Origin: an uncultured cyanobacterium
Lineage (GTDB): Bacteria > Cyanobacteriota > Cyanobacteriia > Cyanobacteriales > FACHB-T130
Assembly: GCA_936920195.1 (NCBI GenBank)
Contig: CAKZHE010000252.1
Coordinates: 1 to 64,000 of the forward strand
Length of the DNA: 64,000 nt
Reading direction: 5' to 3'
Below the pieces are notes generated by a model. It was not told the origin of the DNA and searched no databases. It worked only from the letters and a program-made list of their open reading frames with translations. Shown here piece after piece: positions 22,005 through 33,883 of this stretch. How positions within the stretch are numbered: position 1 is the stretch's first letter; the number at the start of each line of letters is the position of its first letter. Both the position numbers and the translations under genes were made by a program.

Positions 22005-22146
22005 TCAATTATTCTGGCTAGCGATAAATTGCTGAATCTTGTCAATGTTGATTTTTAACTCTTCAGCAATTTGCTCAGTCGTTAGTCCCAACTTTAAGAG
22101 CAAAGGCACTGTTTTTACCTGAGTTCGATATAAGCAAATAAGCTAC
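22005..22146 (-). pseudogene. C-terminal remnant of an Rpn/DUF4351-type transposase-like protein
   Basis: On the minus strand a short open stretch reads TVPLLLKLGLTTEQIAEELK followed by INIDKIQQFIASQNN and a stop. This matches the C-terminal tail typical of cyanobacterial Rpn-family (PD-(D/E)xK, putative transposase) proteins. There is no start and no N-terminal domain; an in-frame stop lies exactly at the CAST boundary. It is a fragment outside the transposon. Confidence 0.6.
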
Positions 22147-22385
22147 TGTACATTAACGAATTAATTGTCACTTTAACAAATTAATGTCTCATTCTTTCTC
22201 CAAGCGCTGTAATCCTTTCAAAACAAGGATTACAGCGCTTTTTTACTGTTTCAACCTCTGCGTTCTTCATTCCTATTGAATTAACAAATTAAATGTCTGA
22301 CCCCCGAAAATTCACAAATTAGGTGTCACTTCCTAAAACTGCGATTTTTTTGAGCTTGATCCGAGATTAACACATTGACTGTCAC
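22147..22385. repeat. tnsB-side transposon end with TnsB-binding-like repeats
   Basis: The terminal TGTACATTAACG starts at 22147. Motif copies: 22152-22171 (ATTAACGAATTAATTGTCAC), 22172-22190, 22279-22299, 22310-22329 and 22364-22385, all sharing TTAACA-A-TT...TGTC in the same orientation. The first two are adjacent; the others are spaced out up to the tnsB promoter region, so TnsB could also repress its own operon by binding here. Confidence 0.88.
22202..22246. terminator. Strong hairpin inside the tnsB-side end
   Basis: The arms AAGCGCTGTAATCCTT and AAGGATTACAGCGCTT (16 bp, exact) are followed by TTTTTT. It lies between the second and third end repeats. It looks like an intrinsic terminator that would stop transcription entering the transposon from the flank. 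Confidence 0.75.
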
Positions 22386-22428
22386 AGCTTGATCCTTTAA
22401 AATACAAGTATGTTTTAATCAAACACTA

Positions 22429-24135
22429 ATGTTTATGTCTAAGGCCGATCTCTCGGAAACAATTTCAGATGAGAGGGACAATCTCAAAGAAGCCAATACC
22501 ATCGCCTCTGAACTTGATGACGAGGCAATGCTGAAAATGGAAGCAATCCAACGCTTGATGGAGGCAGGCGATCGCGCCACTTATTCTCAACGGCTAAAGG
22601 AAGCTGCCGAAAAGCTGGGCAAGTCGGTGCGGACGGTGCGACGGTTAGTCCATAAATGGGAAGAACAAGGGCTGTTGGGTCTGGTTCAAGCTGAACGCTC
22701 TGATAAAGGTAAGCACCGAGTTGATACCGACTGGCAAGATTTCATCCTCAAAACCTATCGGGAAGGAAATAAGGGTAGTAAACGGATAACCCCGAAACAG
22801 GTTTTCCTAAGAGTGCAAGCAAAAGCTCATGAATTAGGGGTTAAGTCTCCAAGTCACATGACTGTTTACCGCATTCTTAATCCTTTAATTGAAAAACAAG
22901 AAAAAGCTAAAAGCATTCGCAGTCCAGGGTGGCGAGGGTCGCGGTTGTCAGTTAAAACCCGCTCTGGTAAAGATTTGGCAGTAGAGTACAGCAACCAGGT
23001 GTGGCAATGCGACCACACCCGCGTCGATCTGTTGTTAGTAGATCGGCACGGCGAGATTTTAGGCCGTCCTTGGCTGACAACTGTTATTGACAGCTATTCT
23101 CGTTGCATTATCGGCATTAATTTAGGTTTTGATGCTCCCAGTTCTCAGGTAGTTGCTTTAGCATTGCGTCATGCTATTTTGCCGAAGCAGTACAGCGCAG
23201 AATATGGTCTGCATTGCGACTGGGGAACCTATGGGAAACCAGAGCATTTTTATACTGATGGTGGTAAGGATTTTCGTTCTGAACATTTGAGTCAGATTTC
23301 GGTGCAGTTAGGGTTTGTTTGCCATTTGCGCGATCGCCCCTCTGAAGGCGGTATTGTTGAGCGTCCCTTTGGCACATTGAATACAGAGGTCTTTGCCACT
23401 TTGCCGGGATATACGGGGTCAAATGTCCAAAAACGACCGGAAGATGCGGAAAAAGAAGCTTGTTTGACCCTGCGGCAGTTAGAGCAGTATTTAGTCCGTT
23501 ATATCGTTGACAACTACAACCAGCGACTTGACGCTCGTATGGGCGACCAAACAAGGTTTCAACGGTGGGAATCTGGTCTATTGGCTATGTTGCCTTTAAT
23601 CGCAGAAAGAGATTTGGATATCTGCCTGATCAAACAGTCTAGACGAACGATTCAAAGGGGCGGCTACTTGCAATTTGAGAATTTGATGTACCGAGGCGAT
23701 CGGCTGGAAGGCTATGCCGGAGAAAGTGTGGTACTGCGATTTAACCCTAGAGATATTACAACTATCTTGGTTTATCGGAATGAAGGCAGTAAGGAGGTGT
23801 TTTTAGCCCGTGCTTATGCTCAGGATTTGCAAACGGAGCAACTGTCTTTGGATGAGGCTAAAGCTAGCAGTCGCAAGATTCGGGAAGCAGGTAAGGCAGT
23901 TAGTAACCGTTCGATTTTGGCAGAGGTACGCGATCGCGAAACTTTCTTGACTCAAAAGAAAAGCAAAAAGGAACGTCAAAAATCTGAACAGATTGAAGTT
24001 CAAAAAGCTAAAAAGTCATTACAGAGTGAGTTTGAAGCTGAAGAAATAGACTTGGCAGATATTGAAAATGAACCTGAACCAGAAATGCCAGAAGTCTTTG
24101 ATTACGAACAAATGCGGGAAGATTACGGGTGGTAA
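22429..24135 (+). CDS. tnsB: TnsB, DDE transposase subunit of the V-K CAST
   Basis: 568 aa. N-terminal helix-turn-helix region (about 35-90, including GKSVRTVRRLVHKW), a second HTH region, then the RNase H-fold integrase core with the catalytic triad Asp in QCDHTRVD (about 195), Asp in YTDGGKDF (about 275) and Glu in GGIVERPFG (about 307). A Mu-type beta-barrel and a charged C-terminal tail (about 490-568) follow; in known V-K systems the tail contacts TnsC. It binds the end repeats and performs strand transfer. The stop is 3 bp before tnsC. An alternative ATG at 22435 removes two residues. Confidence 0.96.
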   Translation: MFMSKADLSETISDERDNLKEANTIASELDDEAMLKMEAIQRLMEAGDRATYSQRLKEAAEKLGKSVRTVRRLVHKWEEQGLLGLVQAERSDKGKHRVDTDWQDFILKTYREGNKGSKRITPKQVFLRVQAKAHELGVKSPSHMTVYRILNPLIEKQEKAKSIRSPGWRGSRLSVKTRSGKDLAVEYSNQVWQCDHTRVDLLLVDRHGEILGRPWLTTVIDSYSRCIIGINLGFDAPSSQVVALALRHAILPKQYSAEYGLHCDWGTYGKPEHFYTDGGKDFRSEHLSQISVQLGFVCHLRDRPSEGGIVERPFGTLNTEVFATLPGYTGSNVQKRPEDAEKEACLTLRQLEQYLVRYIVDNYNQRLDARMGDQTRFQRWESGLLAMLPLIAERDLDICLIKQSRRTIQRGGYLQFENLMYRGDRLEGYAGESVVLRFNPRDITTILVYRNEGSKEVFLARAYAQDLQTEQLSLDEAKASSRKIREAGKAVSNRSILAEVRDRETFLTQKKSKKERQKSEQIEVQKAKKSLQSEFEAEEIDLADIENEPEPEMPEVFDYEQMREDYGW

Positions 24136-24138
24136 ACC

Positions 24139-24981
24139 ATGACTAAAACCAACAATGAAGCCCAAGCAGTTGCCCAACAATTAGGGGATATTCCCCTTAA
24201 TGATGAAAGATTACAGGCAGAAATTCAACGCTTAAACCGGAAGAATTTTATCCCGCTGGAGCAGGTAAAAATGTTGCATGATTGGCTAGAAGGAAAACGC
24301 CAATCGCGGCAATCTGGTCGTGTGGTGGGAGAGTCAAGAACGGGTAAAACTATGGGTTGTGATGCCTATAGGTTGCGTCACAAACCGCACCAGGAAGCAG
24401 GAAAACCGCCGATAATACCTGTTGCTTATATTCAGATTCCCCAGGAGTGCGGCTCTAAGGAGTTGTTTGGAGTAATTATTGAGCATCTAAAGTATCAGGT
24501 AACAAAGGGAACAGTAGCAGAAATTAGAGATAGGGCGCTACGGGTTCTGAAGGGTTGTGGCGTGGAAATGCTAATTATTGATGAGGCTGACCGCTTGAAA
24601 CCCAAGACTTTTGCAGAGGTACGAGATATTTTTGACAAGTTGGAAATTGCGGTGATTTTGGTGGGTACTGACCGCTTGGATGCAGCAATTAAGCGGGATG
24701 AACAGGTATATAATCGCTTTCGGGCTTGTCATCGTTTTGGCAAGTTGTCAGGGGAAGATTTTAAACGCACTGTAGAGATTTGGGAAAAGCAGGTTTTACG
24801 GTTGTCGGTTGCTTCCAATCTTTCTAGTAAGACGATGTTGAAGACTTTGGGGGAAGCAACTGGGGGTTATGTGGGTCTGCTGGATATGATTCTCAGGGAA
24901 GCAGGGATTCGGGCTTTAAGAAAGGGATTGCAGAAGATTGATTTGGAAACGCTAAAGGAAGTATCTGGGGAGTACAAGTGA
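24139..24981 (+). CDS. tnsC: TnsC, AAA+ ATPase regulator of the V-K CAST
   Basis: 280 aa, an AAA+ ATPase of the TniB/TnsC type: Walker A GESRTGKT (about 65), Walker B MLIIDEADRLK (about 145), then a sensor-like VILVGTDRLD. In V-K systems TnsC polymerises on DNA next to the Cas12k-TniQ complex and recruits TnsB. It is the short V-K form without a long TnsA-binding tail, in keeping with the absence of tnsA. It overlaps tniQ by 4 bp (ATGA), so translation is coupled. Confidence 0.96.
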   Translation: MTKTNNEAQAVAQQLGDIPLNDERLQAEIQRLNRKNFIPLEQVKMLHDWLEGKRQSRQSGRVVGESRTGKTMGCDAYRLRHKPHQEAGKPPIIPVAYIQIPQECGSKELFGVIIEHLKYQVTKGTVAEIRDRALRVLKGCGVEMLIIDEADRLKPKTFAEVRDIFDKLEIAVILVGTDRLDAAIKRDEQVYNRFRACHRFGKLSGEDFKRTVEIWEKQVLRLSVASNLSSKTMLKTLGEATGGYVGLLDMILREAGIRALRKGLQKIDLETLKEVSGEYK

Positions 24982-25505
24982 TGGAAGCCCTAGATATCGA
25001 GCCTTGGTTATTTCGAGTAGAACCCTTTGAGGGTGAGAGTATAAGTCATTTTTTGGGGCGGTTTCGACGGGCAAATGAGTTAACGCCAACTGGGTTGGGT
25101 AAGATGGTGGGATTGGGAGGAGCGATGCCTTCGGCGGGCTTCGCCTACGCTCGTTGGGAAAAGTTTCGCTTTAATCCGCCTCCTTCTCGTCAGCAGTTGG
25201 AAGCGTTAGCGGTAGTGGTGGGGGTGGAGAGCGATCGCTTAGTCCAGATGTTACCGCCTCCTGGGGTAGGAATGAAAATGGAGCCGATTCGGTTGTGTGG
25301 GGCTTGTTACGCTCAGTCGCCTTGTCATAAGATTGAGTGGCAGTTTAAGGCGACAACGGGGTGCGATCGGCATTCCTTACGCTTGCTGTCGGAGTGTCCT
25401 AACTGTGGGGCGAGGTTTAAGGTTCCGGCGTTGTGGGTTGATGGGTGGTGTCAGCGGTGTTTTCTGGGGTTTGCAGAAATGGTGAGGTATCAGAAGATTT
25501 GTTGA
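24978..25505 (+). CDS. tniQ: TniQ, targeting adaptor of the V-K CAST
   Basis: 175 aa, the small V-K type. The N-terminal TniQ signature EPFEGESISHFLGRFRRANE is clear. Zinc-binding pairs follow in LCGACYAQSPCH and in CPNCG...CQRC. It bridges Cas12k/crRNA and the TnsC filament. It is about 8 residues longer than I recall for the ShCAST protein. The extra residues (GGAMPSAGFAYARW region) are encoded by a palindromic 29-bp dispersed repeat at 25122-25150, i.e. an in-frame repeat insertion. Confidence 0.95.
   Translation: MMEALDIEPWLFRVEPFEGESISHFLGRFRRANELTPTGLGKMVGLGGAMPSAGFAYARWEKFRFNPPPSRQQLEALAVVVGVESDRLVQMLPPPGVGMKMEPIRLCGACYAQSPCHKIEWQFKATTGCDRHSLRLLSECPNCGARFKVPALWVDGWCQRCFLGFAEMVRYQKIC
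25122..25150. repeat. Palindromic small dispersed repeat inside tniQ
   Basis: The segment GCGATGCCTTCGGCGGG continued by CTTCGCCTACGC is a well-known kind of cyanobacterial short palindromic repeat (GCGATGCC..CGGCGGGCT..GCCTACGC). Here it lies in frame within tniQ and adds about 8 residues. Confidence 0.75.
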
Positions 25506-25681: not shown

Positions 25682-27139
25682 TTATGCCCAAAATGGTACA
25701 TATTTAGCGTGTTTTCTGGATTTATTTTCTAAATCATAGGCTCTGATTAATCCTTCATTGATTGTATCTGCGATAATTCGTGAAGCCATAGAGTAATTTT
25801 TGTCATCAATTGCAAATCGTTTTCGCAAAGATTCATTAGTCATTTGTTCTCGACATACAAACCTTAAACAGGCGTGCTGGTAACAAGCTCTTATTCGATC
25901 GCTCTTATCCATATCTTTTAGTTCTCTATAAGTAAATAAGAGAACTTCAGTATGTTTACCATTGACGTTAAATTCTGGAGCAGGTAATTGAAAAACTTCT
26001 ACTGAATGAATTACTTTATCTATACCGCTACCACGTTCTTCACAAATATTAATTCTTCTCATAAAAGCAGCTAAATTTTCATTGCGAGATTGAGGTGGTA
26101 AATCTATAAAACGCATTGTATCAACTAATGGTTCGCCAGGGTTTCTAATTTCCATTCGATCGGAAAATATCTCAATGGTAGAACTAACACCAGTCATATT
26201 AAAATCTTGATGGATTATAGCATTAGCCACTAATTCTCTAATGGCAATCTCTGGATACATTTTGATGTTTTTTCGTACTGCTTGACCAATTTGTTCATTT
26301 TGCGGCAGTTGCTCGTTAATAAATTTAATGATTTCTTCATAACTAACAGCGTAGCCTTTATCGAATACCTGTTCTCTTTGAGTAGAAATTCGATCTTTTT
26401 CTTTGTATATAATTACTCTAATCGCTTTTCTTCCTAGTTTTTCAAATTCTGTTAACTTTTTAGCAAAAAGAATTGCACCAAAATTAGTGATATCATAATA
26501 ATTACTAAGCTTTATGTTAATTAAATTTTCCGATGCCAAACGGTCTAAAATACCTTGCTTATTATCTGGAAGGTTTTGTTGTGTGAAATCGAAATAACTT
26601 GGATAATTTATTTTTGCTAAAACTTCATCTGCGCTTATATTTTCTAATGCAATTCCCTTTTCAAACGGTTGGCGAGAAAACAATGACCATAACTCTCTCT
26701 CTTTTTCTGTAAAATCTTTGAGCTTTTTTTTATAACTACCTACACGAATGTACTCAACTCCTTTAAAACTAATAGGTATATGAGCGGCTTTTGGTATCTC
26801 AAACAAAACAATATCTTTACTCTCGCAAGTAAATTCATAAATTCTAAAATCTATTCGTGGTTCAAGTTGTACGGCAAGCCAGTTTTCTAGTTCTTGGCCT
26901 TTGATTTTTTCTTGCTTCGGTTTAAATTTTGTACCTATAATATTGTGGCTTTTATCATCAATCCCCCAAATAAGGTAAGCAGTTTGCTGATTATGTAGTG
27001 TAGCAGAGTTTGACAAAGCCGACAGATATTCACCAATAAGCTCTGGATTTGTATTATCTTTTTTGAATTCAACCCATTCTGTTTCATTTGGAAGGGCTAA
27101 TAATTGTTGTAGTAACGGTATTAAATGCTTGGTTTCCAT
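25682..27139 (-). CDS. AlbA_2/Schlafen-type putative DNA- or RNA-binding protein (CAST cargo)
   Basis: 485 aa. The N-terminal AlbA_2 domain has ETEWVEFKKD and LSALSNSATL with YLIWGIDD (about 15-130). A central region with ELVANAIIHQDF, IRNPGEPL and RGSGIDKV resembles the C-terminal HATPase-like half of COG2865 proteins. A winged-helix-like tail follows. These proteins often accompany type I-like restriction modules, where their role is unclear. It is the third gene of the cargo operon, 47 bp after the specificity subunit, on the opposite strand to the transposition genes, and AT-rich. Confidence 0.82.
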   Translation of the reverse strand: METKHLIPLLQQLLALPNETEWVEFKKDNTNPELIGEYLSALSNSATLHNQQTAYLIWGIDDKSHNIIGTKFKPKQEKIKGQELENWLAVQLEPRIDFRIYEFTCESKDIVLFEIPKAAHIPISFKGVEYIRVGSYKKKLKDFTEKERELWSLFSRQPFEKGIALENISADEVLAKINYPSYFDFTQQNLPDNKQGILDRLASENLINIKLSNYYDITNFGAILFAKKLTEFEKLGRKAIRVIIYKEKDRISTQREQVFDKGYAVSYEEIIKFINEQLPQNEQIGQAVRKNIKMYPEIAIRELVANAIIHQDFNMTGVSSTIEIFSDRMEIRNPGEPLVDTMRFIDLPPQSRNENLAAFMRRINICEERGSGIDKVIHSVEVFQLPAPEFNVNGKHTEVLLFTYRELKDMDKSDRIRACYQHACLRFVCREQMTNESLRKRFAIDDKNYSMASRIIADTINEGLIRAYDLENKSRKHAKYVPFWA

Positions 27140-27186
27140 AACGATTTTTGCTCTCCTTTTCTGGTTTTTGTTCAGCCTGAAAATTT

Positions 27187-28641
27187 TTATACTTTGATAG
27201 AAGTGAGATTTTCAATCTGACGGATGGCCTCTCGTTCTTTCTGCCAAGCTTCATCGCGCAACGCATTAGCTTTGAGAACTAAATCTCCAATCTCGTTTCT
27301 GATAGTTGGCACAGGTAATGGGATGGGAACAGAGGCAAGCATATCAAGATCAATGTGTACAATGACCGAACCATAAGAATGTCTTGTTATAAGACAATAA
27401 CCATAATCGGAGGCAAGCCAAGTGTAAAGATAGCCAGCGTTGATATCAGATGCAGCTAGTATTCTCGTTGCGTCTTCACTAGCTGTCCAATCTGCCATAT
27501 ATTTAGGAATAATTTGTACCCGTCCAATTGTACCGGAGCGAGTTATAGCAATCATTCCTTCTTCTAACTGGATTTCAGGTAAATCTTTAGTATGAGCGCC
27601 TTTTGCTAATCGCTTGACATCTATGGGATCGATTTGAAAAATCTGCTTGCTACTAAGCATCGGAATTCCACCACGAGGAACATACGTTCGTTCGCGGAAT
27701 TTGGTAATTGCTCTAATTTCCTTAGTAACTCGTTCATCACCAATAGTGGTAATTTCTACTGGCAACTGCTTTAACTTCTGTTCCGCTTTAATGGCGATCG
27801 GATCGTGAAAACTTGCTTCTAAGCGTCCAGCAAGTTGAGATGCTTTAACTCTAGATGTTAAACAACCGCTATTGCTTGATGTTAATGAGTCCAAATAAGG
27901 CAGATTCAGATGTGCGTGTAAAAGCCTATCCGCTTCATCTAATAAACGATTGGCTTCATCTCTTAGTTTTCCAGCTTCACACATCAATCGTCCAATAGCA
28001 ATTCGACGCAGCGGGTGTAAATCGGGAATAACTATTCGTGTTAGGTGTTCCGGTTCAATATGGACAATAACTGAACCGTAAGTCGCTTGAAGAAGTTGGG
28101 GACGACCTAAACGACTGCGGAGAAAAGCCGCGACATAGCCAGCAGTATCAGGGTCATTGCTACGAAGACGGATAGCGTGTTCGGATAAGGCTTTTCCAGC
28201 CATTATTGCTGTTGCTAAAGCAACATTTCCTATAGTGCCAGAGCGAGAAATGAGAACATCCCACATCTCGACTAAAAACTTATTTACATTAGGTGTTAGC
28301 TTGCGACTTAGAAACCGTTCTATTTTGGGTCGCAAGCTAATAATGTCAGAACTCGATAAAAATGGTACACCCCAATCTGGACTTACTGAAGTTCGTTTAA
28401 GTCGAAATGGTTTTGCAGGCTGCTGACACAAACCTTCATTCCCACACAGAGGAACCAGAGGTAAACCACTTGCTCGTAACTTAGCAACAGCATTACGAGC
28501 CTCAATACTAAAATTAGAGGCTTCTAAGCGAACTCCAGCATCAAAAACTTCCGTTAAACGGACTGTAGTAGAAAGCTTTTCAGGCTCCGTTACCGGGGCT
28601 GAAGGGATAGGCGTTGGTTGTACATTTGTTCGTTTTACCAT
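27187..28641 (-). CDS. Restriction-modification DNA specificity subunit (HsdS/BcgI B-like; CAST cargo)
   Basis: 484 aa from the ATG that overlaps the stop of the upstream gene by 7 bp (ATGGTAA); an earlier TTG at 28665 is less likely. Two target-recognition halves are plain: SRSGTIG and TRSGTIG, and YGSVIVHI present in both. Each half is followed by a helical spacer (RLMCEAGKLRDEANRLLDEA; DEAWQKEREAIRQI). Two TRDs predict a bipartite recognition sequence. It would direct the nuclease-methyltransferase encoded just upstream. Confidence 0.9.
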   Translation of the reverse strand: MVKRTNVQPTPIPSAPVTEPEKLSTTVRLTEVFDAGVRLEASNFSIEARNAVAKLRASGLPLVPLCGNEGLCQQPAKPFRLKRTSVSPDWGVPFLSSSDIISLRPKIERFLSRKLTPNVNKFLVEMWDVLISRSGTIGNVALATAIMAGKALSEHAIRLRSNDPDTAGYVAAFLRSRLGRPQLLQATYGSVIVHIEPEHLTRIVIPDLHPLRRIAIGRLMCEAGKLRDEANRLLDEADRLLHAHLNLPYLDSLTSSNSGCLTSRVKASQLAGRLEASFHDPIAIKAEQKLKQLPVEITTIGDERVTKEIRAITKFRERTYVPRGGIPMLSSKQIFQIDPIDVKRLAKGAHTKDLPEIQLEEGMIAITRSGTIGRVQIIPKYMADWTASEDATRILAASDINAGYLYTWLASDYGYCLITRHSYGSVIVHIDLDMLASVPIPLPVPTIRNEIGDLVLKANALRDEAWQKEREAIRQIENLTSIKV

Positions 28642-30620
28642 CTCAGCACCACCTGTTTTTTCCAATCTAGAAACTCGTCTGCCAAAACAGGCGTATCATC
28701 ATCTAAAATTTTACGACGCGGTAAAGGTCGAACTGTGGCATCACCGGAAGCAGTTCTTTCCAACAGAGGGGTAATTTCTGACTCGGCAGGTGCAAGTAGT
28801 TCTTCACCATCTTCATTCCGCTTGTAAACCTTATTACCGCGCTTATCATGCCCAATGGCATTGACTTGAGCCATAAAAATTTCATAGTCTCGAATTCCTT
28901 CAAATGCTTCTCGATTCATCTCTTCTTCTGTTTTTTTCTGAAGTATTAAAACAGAAGTTTGCGTACCGTTACGAGGCTGAAAGGTATCGGGGTGAAGATC
29001 GATCGAGGCAATTACCTGACAATGAGTTAACATCCAATAACGGACATATAGCAGACCGGGCGCACCTAAAATAGCATCTGGCAGCACAATTGCCATGCGT
29101 CCACCTGGTTTAAGAAATTGCCAACATCTTTCAATAAAAAGAATTTCCGGGGGTTGAGAACCTTGTAATACCTCAGTAGGTTCCCATCCATTTTCTGTTT
29201 CTTTCCAAACATGACCTAGTTTATATTGTCTCAGAGTTTCTGTGTCTTTTATCGGTAACTTAGAACCAAACGGAGGATTTGAAGCAACAACGTCAAAATG
29301 CGCTAAATCTTTTGAACTACGCAAAGAATCTGGATCGATATTGAGGGAATCAGCAAGCTGTCTGCGAAAAGTATCTTCCCACTGATGAGGGTGTAATAGG
29401 CTATCTTGTCGCAAAATATTTCCAGACCCGTCATTATTCATCACCATATTCATTTTGGTGGCTTTAACAAGGTCGGGATTGATATCTATTCCAAAGAAAC
29501 ATTGACCAGCAACTTCTTTAATGCGATCGCGCAAGGCTTCTAAAAAACCACTGCTACCAGGAACTCCGAGAGAGGCTTTTAGTTGATTAATCATTTCATT
29601 CATAGCGATTACTAAGAAACCCCCTGTACCGCAAGCCGGATCGAGAAACTTTTCATCTACTTGTAAATCCAGCATTTTGACTGCCATTCTTTGTACGTTT
29701 CTAGGTGTGAAAAACTCTCCGCGATCGCCCCGCAGATTTGCACCCACTAATTCTTCATAAGCTTTTCCTTTTACATCAATATCTGTATCCAGAAAGCTAT
29801 ATCGTTGAAGCTCGCCTACTATATAAGCCAAAGATCGAGCTTGAAGCTTAATAGCATCGTTAGCATCAAAAATGGTTGGATATCTTTTTTTTACAGCTTC
29901 AAAAATTTTACCAATTCGTTTAGCAACCGTTAGCCGACCATCATTGCTGGCTTTTTCCGAGGCAGTAGCATAAAACTCAAGAGGTTTAGGGACATCGCGT
30001 TCATCGTGAATTTTGCAAAAAATCACTTTCAGCAATTCAAAGAAAGCTGGCTGTTTTTGAAGTCCATCAGTAACGTAAATATGGTTATGGCAAATTTTAA
30101 ACGAGAATAAGAGGTTATCGTCTGTTGCGTGTTTTAACTGTTCTCTAGTTGGACGATTGACTTCTTCTACATTACCATTACTGGATGGGATATCATTGGG
30201 TTCTTCCCAAACAGTTTGTCCTTCTACAACTACCCTTCGGTAGACAAATTTGTACTTTCCATTTGTCCACATTCCCCATTCAGCATTTGGACAAACAGAC
30301 ATATAAGACTTAAGTTGCTCTACACCATCTTTACGATCTGATGGCTCAATAGAGTCTCGCTTACATTCGATTACGATCCAAGCATTATCTTGGGTATGTT
30401 CGTCACCCTCACGAAAAATAATGAGGTCAGCACGACCACGTTTACTAAAAACTTTTACAGGAAACTCTACGGCAATTTGTTTAAAATTGTAGGCCAGTTC
30501 CAAGACAAGACGACGCTCAATATTTTGACGAACATATTCTTCTGGCGTATCATTACGAATTTTTTGGTCAATGAAGTCGCAGATTTTACCATCTGGGATA
30601 GTCATCAGTATCTTGGACAT
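28635..30620 (-). CDS. Nuclease-N6-adenine methyltransferase fusion, BcgI A-like (CAST cargo)
   Basis: 661 aa. An N-terminal HSDR_N-type domain carries a PD-(D/E)xK motif: Asp65 in GRADLIIF, Glu85 and Lys87 in VIECKRD. A helical region precedes an N6-MTase core with motif I DPACGTGGFL (about 330) and motif IV NPPFG (about 448). The fusion plus a separate two-TRD subunit, with no hsdR helicase gene present, resembles type IIB enzymes such as BcgI, which cut on both sides of a bipartite site. It could equally be a modification-only module if the nuclease site is inactive. Confidence 0.88.
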   Translation of the reverse strand: MSKILMTIPDGKICDFIDQKIRNDTPEEYVRQNIERRLVLELAYNFKQIAVEFPVKVFSKRGRADLIIFREGDEHTQDNAWIVIECKRDSIEPSDRKDGVEQLKSYMSVCPNAEWGMWTNGKYKFVYRRVVVEGQTVWEEPNDIPSSNGNVEEVNRPTREQLKHATDDNLLFSFKICHNHIYVTDGLQKQPAFFELLKVIFCKIHDERDVPKPLEFYATASEKASNDGRLTVAKRIGKIFEAVKKRYPTIFDANDAIKLQARSLAYIVGELQRYSFLDTDIDVKGKAYEELVGANLRGDRGEFFTPRNVQRMAVKMLDLQVDEKFLDPACGTGGFLVIAMNEMINQLKASLGVPGSSGFLEALRDRIKEVAGQCFFGIDINPDLVKATKMNMVMNNDGSGNILRQDSLLHPHQWEDTFRRQLADSLNIDPDSLRSSKDLAHFDVVASNPPFGSKLPIKDTETLRQYKLGHVWKETENGWEPTEVLQGSQPPEILFIERCWQFLKPGGRMAIVLPDAILGAPGLLYVRYWMLTHCQVIASIDLHPDTFQPRNGTQTSVLILQKKTEEEMNREAFEGIRDYEIFMAQVNAIGHDKRGNKVYKRNEDGEELLAPAESEITPLLERTASGDATVRPLPRRKILDDDTPVLADEFLDWKKQVVLRW

Positions 30621-30718: not shown

Positions 30719-31162
30719 TCAGGCACATTTCCCCCAGTCTTTCAACCTCACCTCTAACTGCTGATGAATAACATCTAACCATACTGGCACAACAGGCAAC
30801 CCCTCTGCCCAAAGTGCGATCGCCTTTGAGCTATCAAACTCAACTAAATCAAAAGATTGCTCAGTAGGATGGCGGTACAGCATTAACCGGACTCTTTGGG
30901 ATGGGCTAAAAAACTCCGGTTCCCTTTCCTTCAAAGTCTTCAGCGTTTCCCTCGCCAACTCAAAACTCAACCCCACAGACAGCCAATAGGCGATCGCTGC
31001 CAGTTCTACCAAATTAGACCGCGAATAGTAAATACTCCGTCCCGTCCCCGTTTCCGTAATTACAGGGACAACAACCCCACTCTCTCGCCAATACTGCAAC
31101 TGGCGTAGGGAACAGCCTGTAATTTCTGCCGCTTGCTTGGTGGTAAAAAAAGTCTCTTGCAT
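30719..31162 (-). CDS. MerR-type regulator of the CAST (CvkR-like)
   Basis: 147 aa. The N-terminal MerR winged helix (TTKQAAEITGCSLRQLQYWR, then GRSIYYSRSNLVELAAIAYWL) is followed by a helical segment and a short C-terminal domain. There is no Cys cluster for metal sensing. It is encoded divergently from cas12k with a 68-bp shared promoter region. CvkR proteins in this position repress cas12k and the tracrRNA/crRNA in characterised V-K systems, which is the likely role here. Confidence 0.9.
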   Translation of the reverse strand: MQETFFTTKQAAEITGCSLRQLQYWRESGVVVPVITETGTGRSIYYSRSNLVELAAIAYWLSVGLSFELARETLKTLKEREPEFFSPSQRVRLMLYRHPTEQSFDLVEFDSSKAIALWAEGLPVVPVWLDVIHQQLEVRLKDWGKCA

Positions 31163-31230: not shown

Positions 31231-33147
31231 ATGAGCCAAATCACGATCCAGTGCCGCCTAGTCGCCTCAGAATCAACCCGCCGCCAACTTTGGGAGTTGA
31301 TGGCAGATAAAAACACGCCCCTAATTAACGAATTGTTACAACAAGTAGGCCAACATCCCGATTTCCTCACCTGGCGGCAAAAAGGCAAGCTTCCCAGTAC
31401 AGTAGTTAGCCAACTGTGCCAACCCCTCAAAACCGATCCTCGTTTTGCTGGACAGCCCAGCCGTTTTTATCTGTCAGCCATTCATGCCGTAGACTATATC
31501 TATAAATCTTGGTTAGCCATCCAAAAACGCTTACAGCAGAAGCTTGAAGGGAAAACCCACTGGCTAGAAATATTTAAAAGCGATGCTAAATTAGTCGAGA
31601 CTAGCGATCGCAGCTTAGAGGCTATTCGCATCAAAGCCGCTGAAATTTTGGCTCAAGCTACATCTTCCCCTGACTCAAAATCCACTCTACCCAAACAGAA
31701 AAACAGCAAGAAGGCTAAAAAAACCGTATCCTCAGACTCAAGCCGCCGCCTTTCTACTACTCTATTCCAGGTTTACCGAGAAACAGAAGACATCCTGACT
31801 CGCAGCGCTATTAGTTACTTACTCAAAAATGGATGTCAAATCAGCGAACAAGAAGAAAACCCCGAAAAATTTGCTCTGCGTCGTCGTAAACTAGAAATCC
31901 AAATCCAACGGATTAGCGATCAATTAGATTCTCGAATGCCCAAAGGTCGAGACTTGACCAATGAGAAATGGTTAGAAGCCTTAACACTTGCCACAACTAC
32001 AGATCCTCAAGACAATGCCGAAGCTAAACGCTGGCAAGATATTCTTTTAACTCGTTTCAGTTGTCTACCCTTCCCTCTGATCTATGAAACCAATGAAGAT
32101 ATGGTTTGGTCAAAAAACCAAAAAGGTCGCCTTTCTCTTCATTTCAATGGTTTAAGAGACTTGACTTTTGACATATATTGCGATCGATGTCAGCTTCACT
32201 GGTTCCAACGCTTCCTAGAAGACCAGCAAACCAAACGCAGCCACAAGAACCAACATTCTAGTAGCTTATTTACCTTGCGAAGCGGACATTTAGCTTGGCA
32301 ACAAGGTGAAGGCAAAGGAGAGCCTTGGAATGTCCACCATTTAACTCTATACTGCTGTATAGATACGCGATTATGGACTGCCGAAGGAACAGAACAGGTA
32401 CGTCGAGAAAAAGCTGATGAAATTACCAAATTCATCACTAAAATGAAAGAAAAAAGTAACCTCAGCGAAACGCAACAAGCCTTCATTAACCGCAAAGAAT
32501 CTACCCTCAAGCGCATCAACAATCCTTTTCAGCGTCCCAGTCAGCCCCTTTATCAAGGACAGCCTCATATTATAGTTGGAGTTAGCTTAGGCTTAGAAAA
32601 GCCTGCGACAGTAGCCGTAATAGATGTCATTAAAAATCAAGTTCTTACCTATCGCAATATTCGGCAACTACTTGGGGACAATTACAACTTACTCAATCGC
32701 CAGCGCCAGCAAAAGCAACGCTCATCTCGCCACCGCCATCAAGCTCAAAAACTTGCTGCTCCAAATGAATTTGGCGATTCAGAATTGGGACAATATATAG
32801 ATAGACTGCTAGCCAAAGCTATAGTAGATATTACTCAAACTTACCAGGCTGGCAGTATCGTCTTACCCAAGTTAAGTGATATCAGAGAAATTATCCAAGC
32901 CGAAATTCAAACGAAAGCTGAAAAAAAGTGTCCTGGCTATTTAGAAGGCCAGCAAAAATATGCCAAAGAGTATCGAGTTAACATTCATCAGTGGAGTTAT
33001 GGTAGACTAATTGATAGCATTAAAACTCAATCAGCCAAAAACAACATTATCATTGAAGAGGGAAAGCAACCGATTATCGGCAATGCCCAAGAGCAAGCAA
33101 GAGAATTAGCAATCTCAGCTTATCAATCTCGCCTCAAAAAAGGTTGA
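31231..33147 (+). CDS. cas12k: Cas12k, nuclease-dead effector of the V-K CAST
   Basis: 638 aa, the normal size. It begins MSQITIQCRLVASESTRRQL, the Cas12k opening. The RuvC-I equivalent is IIVGVSLGLEKPATVAVIDV (about 447), where the usual catalytic Asp of GIDxG is Ser. The basic RQQKQRSSRHRHQAQ helix and the later LPKLSDIREIIQAEIQ block are typical. It binds the tracrRNA/crRNA and the GTN PAM and marks the target for TnsC/TniQ without cutting. The stop overlaps the tracrRNA promoter. Confidence 0.97.
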   Translation: MSQITIQCRLVASESTRRQLWELMADKNTPLINELLQQVGQHPDFLTWRQKGKLPSTVVSQLCQPLKTDPRFAGQPSRFYLSAIHAVDYIYKSWLAIQKRLQQKLEGKTHWLEIFKSDAKLVETSDRSLEAIRIKAAEILAQATSSPDSKSTLPKQKNSKKAKKTVSSDSSRRLSTTLFQVYRETEDILTRSAISYLLKNGCQISEQEENPEKFALRRRKLEIQIQRISDQLDSRMPKGRDLTNEKWLEALTLATTTDPQDNAEAKRWQDILLTRFSCLPFPLIYETNEDMVWSKNQKGRLSLHFNGLRDLTFDIYCDRCQLHWFQRFLEDQQTKRSHKNQHSSSLFTLRSGHLAWQQGEGKGEPWNVHHLTLYCCIDTRLWTAEGTEQVRREKADEITKFITKMKEKSNLSETQQAFINRKESTLKRINNPFQRPSQPLYQGQPHIIVGVSLGLEKPATVAVIDVIKNQVLTYRNIRQLLGDNYNLLNRQRQQKQRSSRHRHQAQKLAAPNEFGDSELGQYIDRLLAKAIVDITQTYQAGSIVLPKLSDIREIIQAEIQTKAEKKCPGYLEGQQKYAKEYRVNIHQWSYGRLIDSIKTQSAKNNIIIEEGKQPIIGNAQEQARELAISAYQSRLKKG

Positions 33148-33174
33148 CAAATATCTGTACCTTGACAATATAAT
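33144..33174 (+). promoter_or_regulatory. Predicted tracrRNA promoter
   Basis: TTGACA at 33144-33149 and TATAAT at 33169-33174, spaced 19 nt, immediately precede the conserved tracrRNA start. The -35 box overlaps the cas12k stop codon. Confidence 0.6.
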
Positions 33175-33177
33175 ATA

Positions 33178-33440
33178 GTTAATAGCGCCGCAGTTAATGC
33201 TCGTCAGAGTTTCTGAACTGCGTAAGTGAGGGTTAGTTTGGCGGTTGGAAGACCGTCTTGCTTTCTGACCCTGGTAGCTGCTCACCCCGATGCTGCTGTT
33301 CCTTGCGGACAGGAATAAGGTGCGCTCCCAGCAATAAGGGCGCGGGTCTACTGCTGTAGTGGCTACTGAATCACCCCCGACCAAGGGGGAACCCACTCTA
33401 TTTATTTGAGGTCTTCCCACAGGTATTAAATTTCAACGTC
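33178..33440 (+). ncRNA. V-K tracrRNA
   Basis: The sequence follows the known V-K tracrRNA almost word for word: TTAATAGCGCCGC, GAGGGTTAGTTTG, TTGCTTTCTGACCCTGGTAG, CTGCTCACCCCGATGCTGCTG, GGTGCGCTCCCAGCAATAAG, CTGCTGTAGTGGCTACTGAA and ATCACCCCCGACCAAGGGGG. Anti-repeat 1 is AACCCACT (33390-33397), exactly complementary to AGTGGGTT of the delocalized crRNA. Anti-repeat 2 is TTTCAAC (33431-33437), complementary to GTTGAAA. The 3' end is estimated. Confidence 0.95.
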
Positions 33441-33593: not shown

Positions 33594-33646
33594 TGCAGTT
33601 CCAACAGCCCTCTCCAATGGAAGCGGATGGATTAATTTATTAATAA

Positions 33647-33675
33647 GTGGGTTGAAAGCGAGTCCAGTTGTGTCC
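33647..33675 (+). CRISPR. Delocalized (homing) crRNA: half-repeat plus 17-nt tRNA-Val spacer
   Basis: GTGGGTTGAAAG (33647-33658) is the 3' end of the V-K repeat. The next 17 nt, CGAGTCCAGTTGTGTCC (33659-33675), equal the minus-strand sequence of 33811-33827 in tRNA-Val(GAC). The genomic protospacer is preceded by GTT, a valid GTN PAM; here the crRNA copy is preceded by repeat sequence, so the transposon spares itself. The following base differs (T versus A). The unit sits just inside the transposon end. Confidence 0.95.
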
Positions 33676-33681
33676 TTTAAT

Positions 33682-33766
33682 TTGACACGAATTTGGCTAA
33701 ATGAACATCCAATTTGTTACCGTGACACTAATTTGTTACCAGTGACAAGGAATCTGTTAATGTACA
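33682..33766. repeat. tRNA-side transposon end with TnsB-binding-like repeats
   Basis: Read inward from TGTACATTAAC (ending at 33766), motif copies lie at 33741-33766, 33722-33740, 33701-33721 and 33682-33699. All have the TAACAAATT...TGTCAC form seen at the other end, in inverted orientation. Confidence 0.88.
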
Positions 33767-33809
33767 CCTAAAAGCGCCACAACCCTGTACAGGAAAGGGT
33801 TTGAACTAA

Positions 33810-33883
33810 TGGACACAACTGGACTCGAACCAGTGACCCCCACGATGTCAACGTGGTGCTCTAACCAACTGAGCTATGCGTCC
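33810..33883 (-). tRNA. tRNA-Val (anticodon GAC), CAST target site
   Basis: A 74-nt cloverleaf on the minus strand. The acceptor GGACGCA pairs with TGTGTCC. The anticodon stem-loop is CCACG-TTGACAT-CGTGG, giving anticodon GAC. The TPsiC arm reads GGTTCGAGTCC. The discriminator is A and CCA is not encoded. The homing spacer of the adjacent CAST matches its TPsiC/acceptor 3' region. The gene remains intact because insertion is downstream. Confidence 0.96.

Follow-up and report, generated by a model that had tools for sequence, protein, structure and literature searches.

An apparently intact type V-K CAST in an uncultured cyanobacterium very probably inserted beside a tRNA-Val gene under the direction of its own RNA-guided homing module

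Results

A type V-K CAST lies next to a tRNA-Val gene

The window analysed here is a stretch of 64,000 nucleotides (positions 1 to 64,000, forward strand) of contig CAKZHE010000252.1, from assembly GCA_936920195.1 of an uncultured cyanobacterium (Cyanobacteriales; FACHB-T130). A type V-K CAST of 11.6 kb spans the region from its right end (RE) at 22147 to its left end (LE) at 33766. Its ends and protein-coding genes are as follows.

22147-22428, + strand: RE, with a TGTACA terminus and TnsB-binding-like repeats at about 22153, 22281, 22311 and 22367
22429-24135, + strand: tnsB, 568 aa (phmmer ShTnsB 7svw, E=1e-257; Pfam Mu-transpos_C)
24139-24981, + strand: tnsC, 280 aa (ShTnsC, E=1e-120; TniB)
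24978-25505, + strand: tniQ, 175 aa (ShTniQ, E=1.5e-74; Pfam TniQ)
25682-30620, - strand: cargo of three genes, assigned by family profile matches
25682-27139, - strand: Schlafen/AlbA_2 ATPase-like protein (cargo)
27187-28665, - strand: MAD5-like specificity subunit (cargo)
28635-30620, - strand: MAD2-like DNA methyltransferase (cargo)
30719-31162, - strand: cvkR, MerR-type V-K repressor (phmmer Alr3614/CvkR 7xn2, E=6.6e-35; MerR_1)
31231-33147, + strand: cas12k, 638 aa, full length (NCBIfam V_Cas12k, NF038191, 972 bits; ShCas12k 7n3o)
33676-33766, - strand: LE, with TnsB-binding-like repeats and a TGTACA terminus at 33761-33766

The first 11 bases of the termini (TGTACATTAAC) are common to LE and RE, and tnsB, tnsC and tniQ adjoin RE in that order. 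The phmmer searches with the element's proteins had solved structures as their targets, and in these Cas12k matched ShCas12k over its full length (E=0, 1052 bits); its NF038191 score compares with a cut-off of 150 bits. In alignments, the DDE blocks of TnsB are intact, as are the two Walker motifs of TnsC (A, GESRTGKT; B, LIIDEAD). No tnsA was found among the element's annotated genes. The assembly has one cas12k copy, RE is partially matched elsewhere in it by the element's own LE alone, and no second CAST copy was found there. A search of a plasmid collection gave only weak matches or tRNA matches. Judged by its genes and ends, the element is a complete type V-K CAST that is close to ShCAST (Tn7747, Scytonema hofmannii).

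The MAD2-like methyltransferase and MAD5-like subunit, whose scores lie under the curated equivalog cut-offs, may form with the Schlafen/AlbA protein a partial methylation-associated defence set within the CAST. On a contig of a metagenome-assembled genome (L034, 10001-12674), a short match to the N-terminus of cas12k runs into a match to the N-terminus of tnsB and is followed by the window's Schlafen (87%) and MAD5 (76%) cargo; this locus is apparently a collapsed close relative of the window element.

A 17-nt guide just inside the left end matches the tRNA-Val gene

The region between cas12k and the tRNA gene contains the parts of a delocalized crRNA and its target.

33647-33658, + strand: R*, the truncated repeat of the delocalized crRNA, GTGGGTTGAAAG
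33659-33675, + strand: 17-nt anchor spacer (homing guide), CGAGTCCAGTTGTGTCC
33810-33883, - strand: tRNA-Val (GAC), intact, the attachment gene (ARAGORN and Rfam)
33811-33827, - strand: anchor protospacer in the 3' part of tRNA-Val, equal to the spacer
33828-33830, - strand: PAM GTT, read on the tRNA strand directly 5' of the protospacer

A first-pass annotation made from the sequence letters had claimed that the 17 nt following a half-repeat equal the reverse complement of 33811-33827, that GTT precedes the protospacer, and that 61 bp lie between the PAM-adjacent base and the transposon end. Each of these readings is exact. On direct alignment, spacer and protospacer are identical at 17/17 positions with a mismatch at base 18, GTT is read at the reverse complement of 33828-33830, and the distance from 33827 to 33767 inclusive is 61 bp, with the left end at 33766. 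The spacer and protospacer 17-mers occur once each in the window. The match is not a chance one: against the other 870-bp tiles of the window the best match to the spacer was 13/17 and the modal match 10/17, and 17/17 identity would arise by chance in a stretch of 870 bp, counting both strands, with a probability of about 1e-7, a figure that leaves PAM and distance out.

Published V-K homing modules consist of an R* of about 12 nt and a 17-nt anchor spacer, with a GTN PAM and 46-82 nt to LE (PMC9938897), and their guides are directed mostly to tRNA genes (PMC11406308). The same features are present here: an R* of about 12 nt and a 17-nt spacer near LE, a tRNA match, a GTN PAM and the spacing. 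The orientation fits the published description as well (PMC9938897).

One alternative is that the 17-nt copy is no guide but an att-site duplicate, produced when a tyrosine-recombinase island integrates and leaves a direct repeat of the tRNA 3' end. The copy does match the 3' end of the tRNA gene, a classic integrase site; however, it is inverted with respect to the tRNA, whereas att cores are direct repeats. Moreover, a CRISPR half-repeat directly precedes the copy, the annotated genes of the element include no integrase, and the guides of related CASTs often match the anticodon region and not the 3' end. The probability of an att duplicate is negligible, and the inverted orientation together with the related elements rules it out.

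R* pairs with a predicted tracrRNA in an element that has lost its array

Three further features lie between cas12k and the guide.

33182-33398, + strand: predicted tracrRNA, starting 35 nt past the cas12k stop by analogy to PMC9938897
33390-33398, + strand: anti-repeat AACCCACTC, pairing with R*
33598-33633, + strand: single decayed CRISPR repeat remnant (sub-threshold CRISPR-DR15 match at 33598-33658)

The predicted tracrRNA gene is placed downstream of cas12k, and the sequence at 33148-33394 has homologues in the tracr regions of over 20 related CASTs. R*, taken as AGTGGGTT (33646-33653), pairs with the anti-repeat AACCCACT at 8/8 positions.

A CRISPR array with 37-nt repeats is absent; downstream of cas12k there are one exact half-repeat copy and one decayed repeat. 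The latter, GTTCCAACAGCCCTCTCCAATGGAAGCGGATGGATT, is directly 5' of R* and resembles a decayed full repeat, and an array-type repeat is found directly 5' of R* in three other loci as well (L004, L022 and L025). By these sequence features, the ordinary CRISPR array has been lost from the window element, and it therefore probably now uses the homing pathway alone. A pattern search found no array in 13 of 49 anchored elements, the window element included. A survey of V-K CASTs counted 90 arrays and 130 left ends, and thus an array is not essential to the V-K class (PMC9938897).

Relatives have empty tRNA-Val loci, and related elements carry guides for their own targets

Five genomes from the host's family and one from its order (G030) have the tRNA-Val gene next to the same right-hand gene (34052 in the window, 87-93% protein identity). 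The first-pass annotation had proposed the empty locus in relatives as a check, and tRNA-Val is indeed free of a CAST in relatives, with no CAST proteins found near it in those six genomes. Four of the six have exactly the same 17-nt protospacer, and G002 and G003 have one mismatch each. In G003, a V-K-end-like sequence, TGTCGATTGCCACATTATTTGACACTAATAACAAATTAGTGTCAC, adjoins tRNA-Val (L077, 8999-9060) without CAST genes and is possibly the remnant of a previous insertion there.

Another genome of the order, G019, has a decayed CAST at tRNA-Val (L090, G019:C10:18000-36000) with the identical 17-nt guide, a GTT PAM and 61 bp. Like the window element it is without an array. Its genes, in contrast, are decayed, the remnants being an 83-aa N-terminal cas12k match and partial tnsC and tniQ, and its R* and anti-repeat carry a compensatory change relative to the window (GGATT/AATCC). 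In G019, the homing guide and the ends have outlived the effector.

The presence of the guide at unrelated sites, which the annotation had named as evidence that would count against its reading, was not found: with up to 2 mismatches allowed, the R*-spacer unit has a single occurrence in 390 genomes of the class, the window itself, and the G019 guide is also at tRNA-Val. A Cas12k query yielded 31 loci, 20 of which were compared with the window element and G019 for their guides (n=22). The guides match their own flanks at 15-17/17 positions with a GT-type PAM, versus mostly 9-12/17 for the flanks of other elements, with higher values where the same or a similar tRNA is shared. The targets of the 20 further elements are mostly tRNA genes (Val, Leu, Thr, Ala, Pro and Gly).

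The element junctions depart from those of a simple insertion

The five bases immediately outside LE differ from those outside RE.

33767-33771, no strand: CCTAA, outside LE (outside RE, where its duplicate would be expected, 22142-22146 is GCTAC)

No matching 5-bp target-site duplication was found within 3 bp of either end. Both ends could be read clearly in a further nine V-K elements; on the assumption that a paired LE and tnsB belong to one element, the duplications matched in three of them (G042, G244 and G299) and were mismatched in six (G017, G186, G265, G181, G252 and G039). Since mismatch is common in native V-K CASTs, the mismatched duplication is not diagnostic here; a target-site duplication is the mark of a simple insertion event and not of the V-K family.

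RE abuts the last 38 codons of a truncated gene that is presumably Rpn-like (DUF2887-type) and that has many other copies in the genome. The C-terminal fragment of this gene occupies 22008-22121, within about 30 bp of RE. The mismatched duplications and the position of RE at a truncated gene make the right-hand junction unlike the product of one simple insertion. The downstream neighbour of tRNA-Val in G003, G005 and G030 is a gene that, from its sequence, is presumably ndhD, and in the window's genome this gene is on another contig. The left flank in the window is not the ancestral neighbour of tRNA-Val, which is ndhD in several relatives. On the ndhD contig of the same genome (C124), where a reciprocal deletion or inversion junction was looked for, no tRNA or CAST end is visible beside ndhD. 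It is possible that later recombination or replicative intramolecular transposition caused the mismatch. V-K elements are without TnsA and form cointegrates (PMC11406308).

These departures bear on two other readings of the locus. In the first, the element arrived by recombination or by transfer of the whole locus with its tRNA, and the match between guide and target was merely co-inherited. The mismatched duplications, the left flank rearranged relative to relatives and the truncated gene at RE would agree with such a history. We nevertheless consider it very unlikely, as the tRNA and its right-hand gene (34052, 87-93%) have the native arrangement of the family, LE lies as far from the PAM as in a de novo V-K insertion, and the same relation of guide to target recurs at many different tRNAs. 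In the second, the element homed once and is now a dead relic that is no longer mobile. An open tnsB, tnsC, tniQ, cas12k and cvkR with conserved blocks kept, full pairing of R* with the anti-repeat (8/8) and two intact ends argue against a relic, even though the array is lost, the target-site duplications are mismatched and the genome has a single copy. The loss of the array is by itself no bar to homing, and 12 other anchored elements are also array-less. Altogether, a dead relic seems unlikely.

The window element resembles known V-K CASTs

TnsB, TnsC, TniQ and Cas12k of ShCAST are full-length homologues of those of the window element. The two elements are alike in gene order, TGTACA ends, GTN PAM, the location of LE on the PAM side and a guide just inside LE. 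Unlike ShCAST, the window element has the 3' part of tRNA-Val(GAC) as its attachment site with its own guide, lacks an array and carries Schlafen-like and MAD2/MAD5-like methylation cargo. AnCAST of Anabaena sp. PCC 7120, which is regulated by CvkR (PMC9938897), shares with the window element the MerR-type CvkR divergent from cas12k and the layout of R* and a 17-nt anchor spacer, but has kept its array and has other cargo. The published CvkR motif was absent from the window upstream of cas12k and tnsB at up to 2 mismatches, and no enrichment was seen.

The V-K CASTs of Nostoc at L004, L005 and L025 have the same tRNA-Val(GAC) attachment gene, the V-K layout and a GTT PAM, with a spacing of 57-59 bp. 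Their guide, AGAGCGCTACGTTGACA, matches the anticodon region of tRNA-Val, whereas that of the window matches the 3' part, and their arrays are kept.

R* co-varies with the tracrRNA anti-repeat

Across the CAST loci L004-L206, R* co-varies with the tracrRNA anti-repeat, while at pair 6 a mismatch is conserved in the array repeats of the same elements. Anchors were selected on their spacer match and a GT PAM, without regard to the anti-repeat; some of the 49 anchored elements are from the same genomes (L013=L171, L014=L176 and L015=L175), and there are 32 distinct combinations of anti-repeat and R*. For pairs 6-8, which the search pattern left unconstrained, the 32 combinations had 2.34 of 3 Watson-Crick pairs, compared with 1.59 (sd 0.126) for shuffled anti-repeats. 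The observed 2.34 was reached in 0/5000 shuffles, which ignore shared ancestry, so that this is not a formal probability. Compensatory combinations of anti-repeat and R* include AACCCT/AGGGTT, AACCCA/TGGGTT, AATCCA/TGGATT and AACTCG/CGAGTT.

Among the array-bearing elements, pair 6 is Watson-Crick with R* in 30/36 and with the commonest array repeat in 4/36. Counted over pairs 1-8, Watson-Crick pairs are more numerous for R* than for the array repeat in 20 elements, equally numerous in 13 and fewer in 3 (L009, L177 and L195, with doubtful anti-repeat calls in L177 and L195). The covariation has no mention in the literature covered, a scope outside which Saito 2021 and Hsieh & Peters 2021 possibly report the same.

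Discussion

What can be read directly at this locus is the match between guide and target, the PAM, the spacing and orientation, the full gene set, the empty loci of relatives, and guides of related elements that match their own flanks in the same way. On these features, the locus is very probably the homing module of an apparently intact V-K CAST, and its crRNA would have guided insertion at tRNA-Val(GAC). The element has the defining features of a V-K CAST except for the array and the target-site duplication. The claim of the first-pass annotation that the element very likely inserted itself with this crRNA thus finds support in the complete V-K CAST, the empty loci of relatives and the self-matching guides of other CASTs; we infer both the insertion and the expression of the crRNA.

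The proposed crRNA would comprise R* (33647-33658) and the 17-nt spacer (33659-33675). By analogy to PMC9938897, the tracrRNA promoter, 35 nt past cas12k, would probably drive transcription through R*. The crRNA may then pair with the tracrRNA anti-repeat and be loaded into Cas12k, which it would guide to the GTT PAM and the protospacer in the 3' part of tRNA-Val(GAC). Insertion of the element by TniQ, TnsC and TnsB would follow at about 61 bp from the PAM, on the downstream side of the tRNA gene, which stays whole because the insertion falls outside it. Homing in this manner is the already published V-K mechanism (PMC9938897, PMC11406308) and is established, not new.

The covariation of R* with the anti-repeat suggests that the homing guide is privileged. 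It is conceivable, at slightly less than even odds in our estimation, that V-K CASTs rank their guides via the tracrRNA, with R*-paired homing guides outcompeting array guides for Cas12k/tracrRNA and array-less elements being homing specialists. The covariation could also be relevant when guides are designed for V-K CAST tools.

The locus is a natural, base-resolved record of RNA-guided homing, in which guide, PAM, spacing and empty relatives are all readable. It adds an attachment site in the 3' part of tRNA-Val and an array-less element whose R* is fully paired to its tracrRNA.
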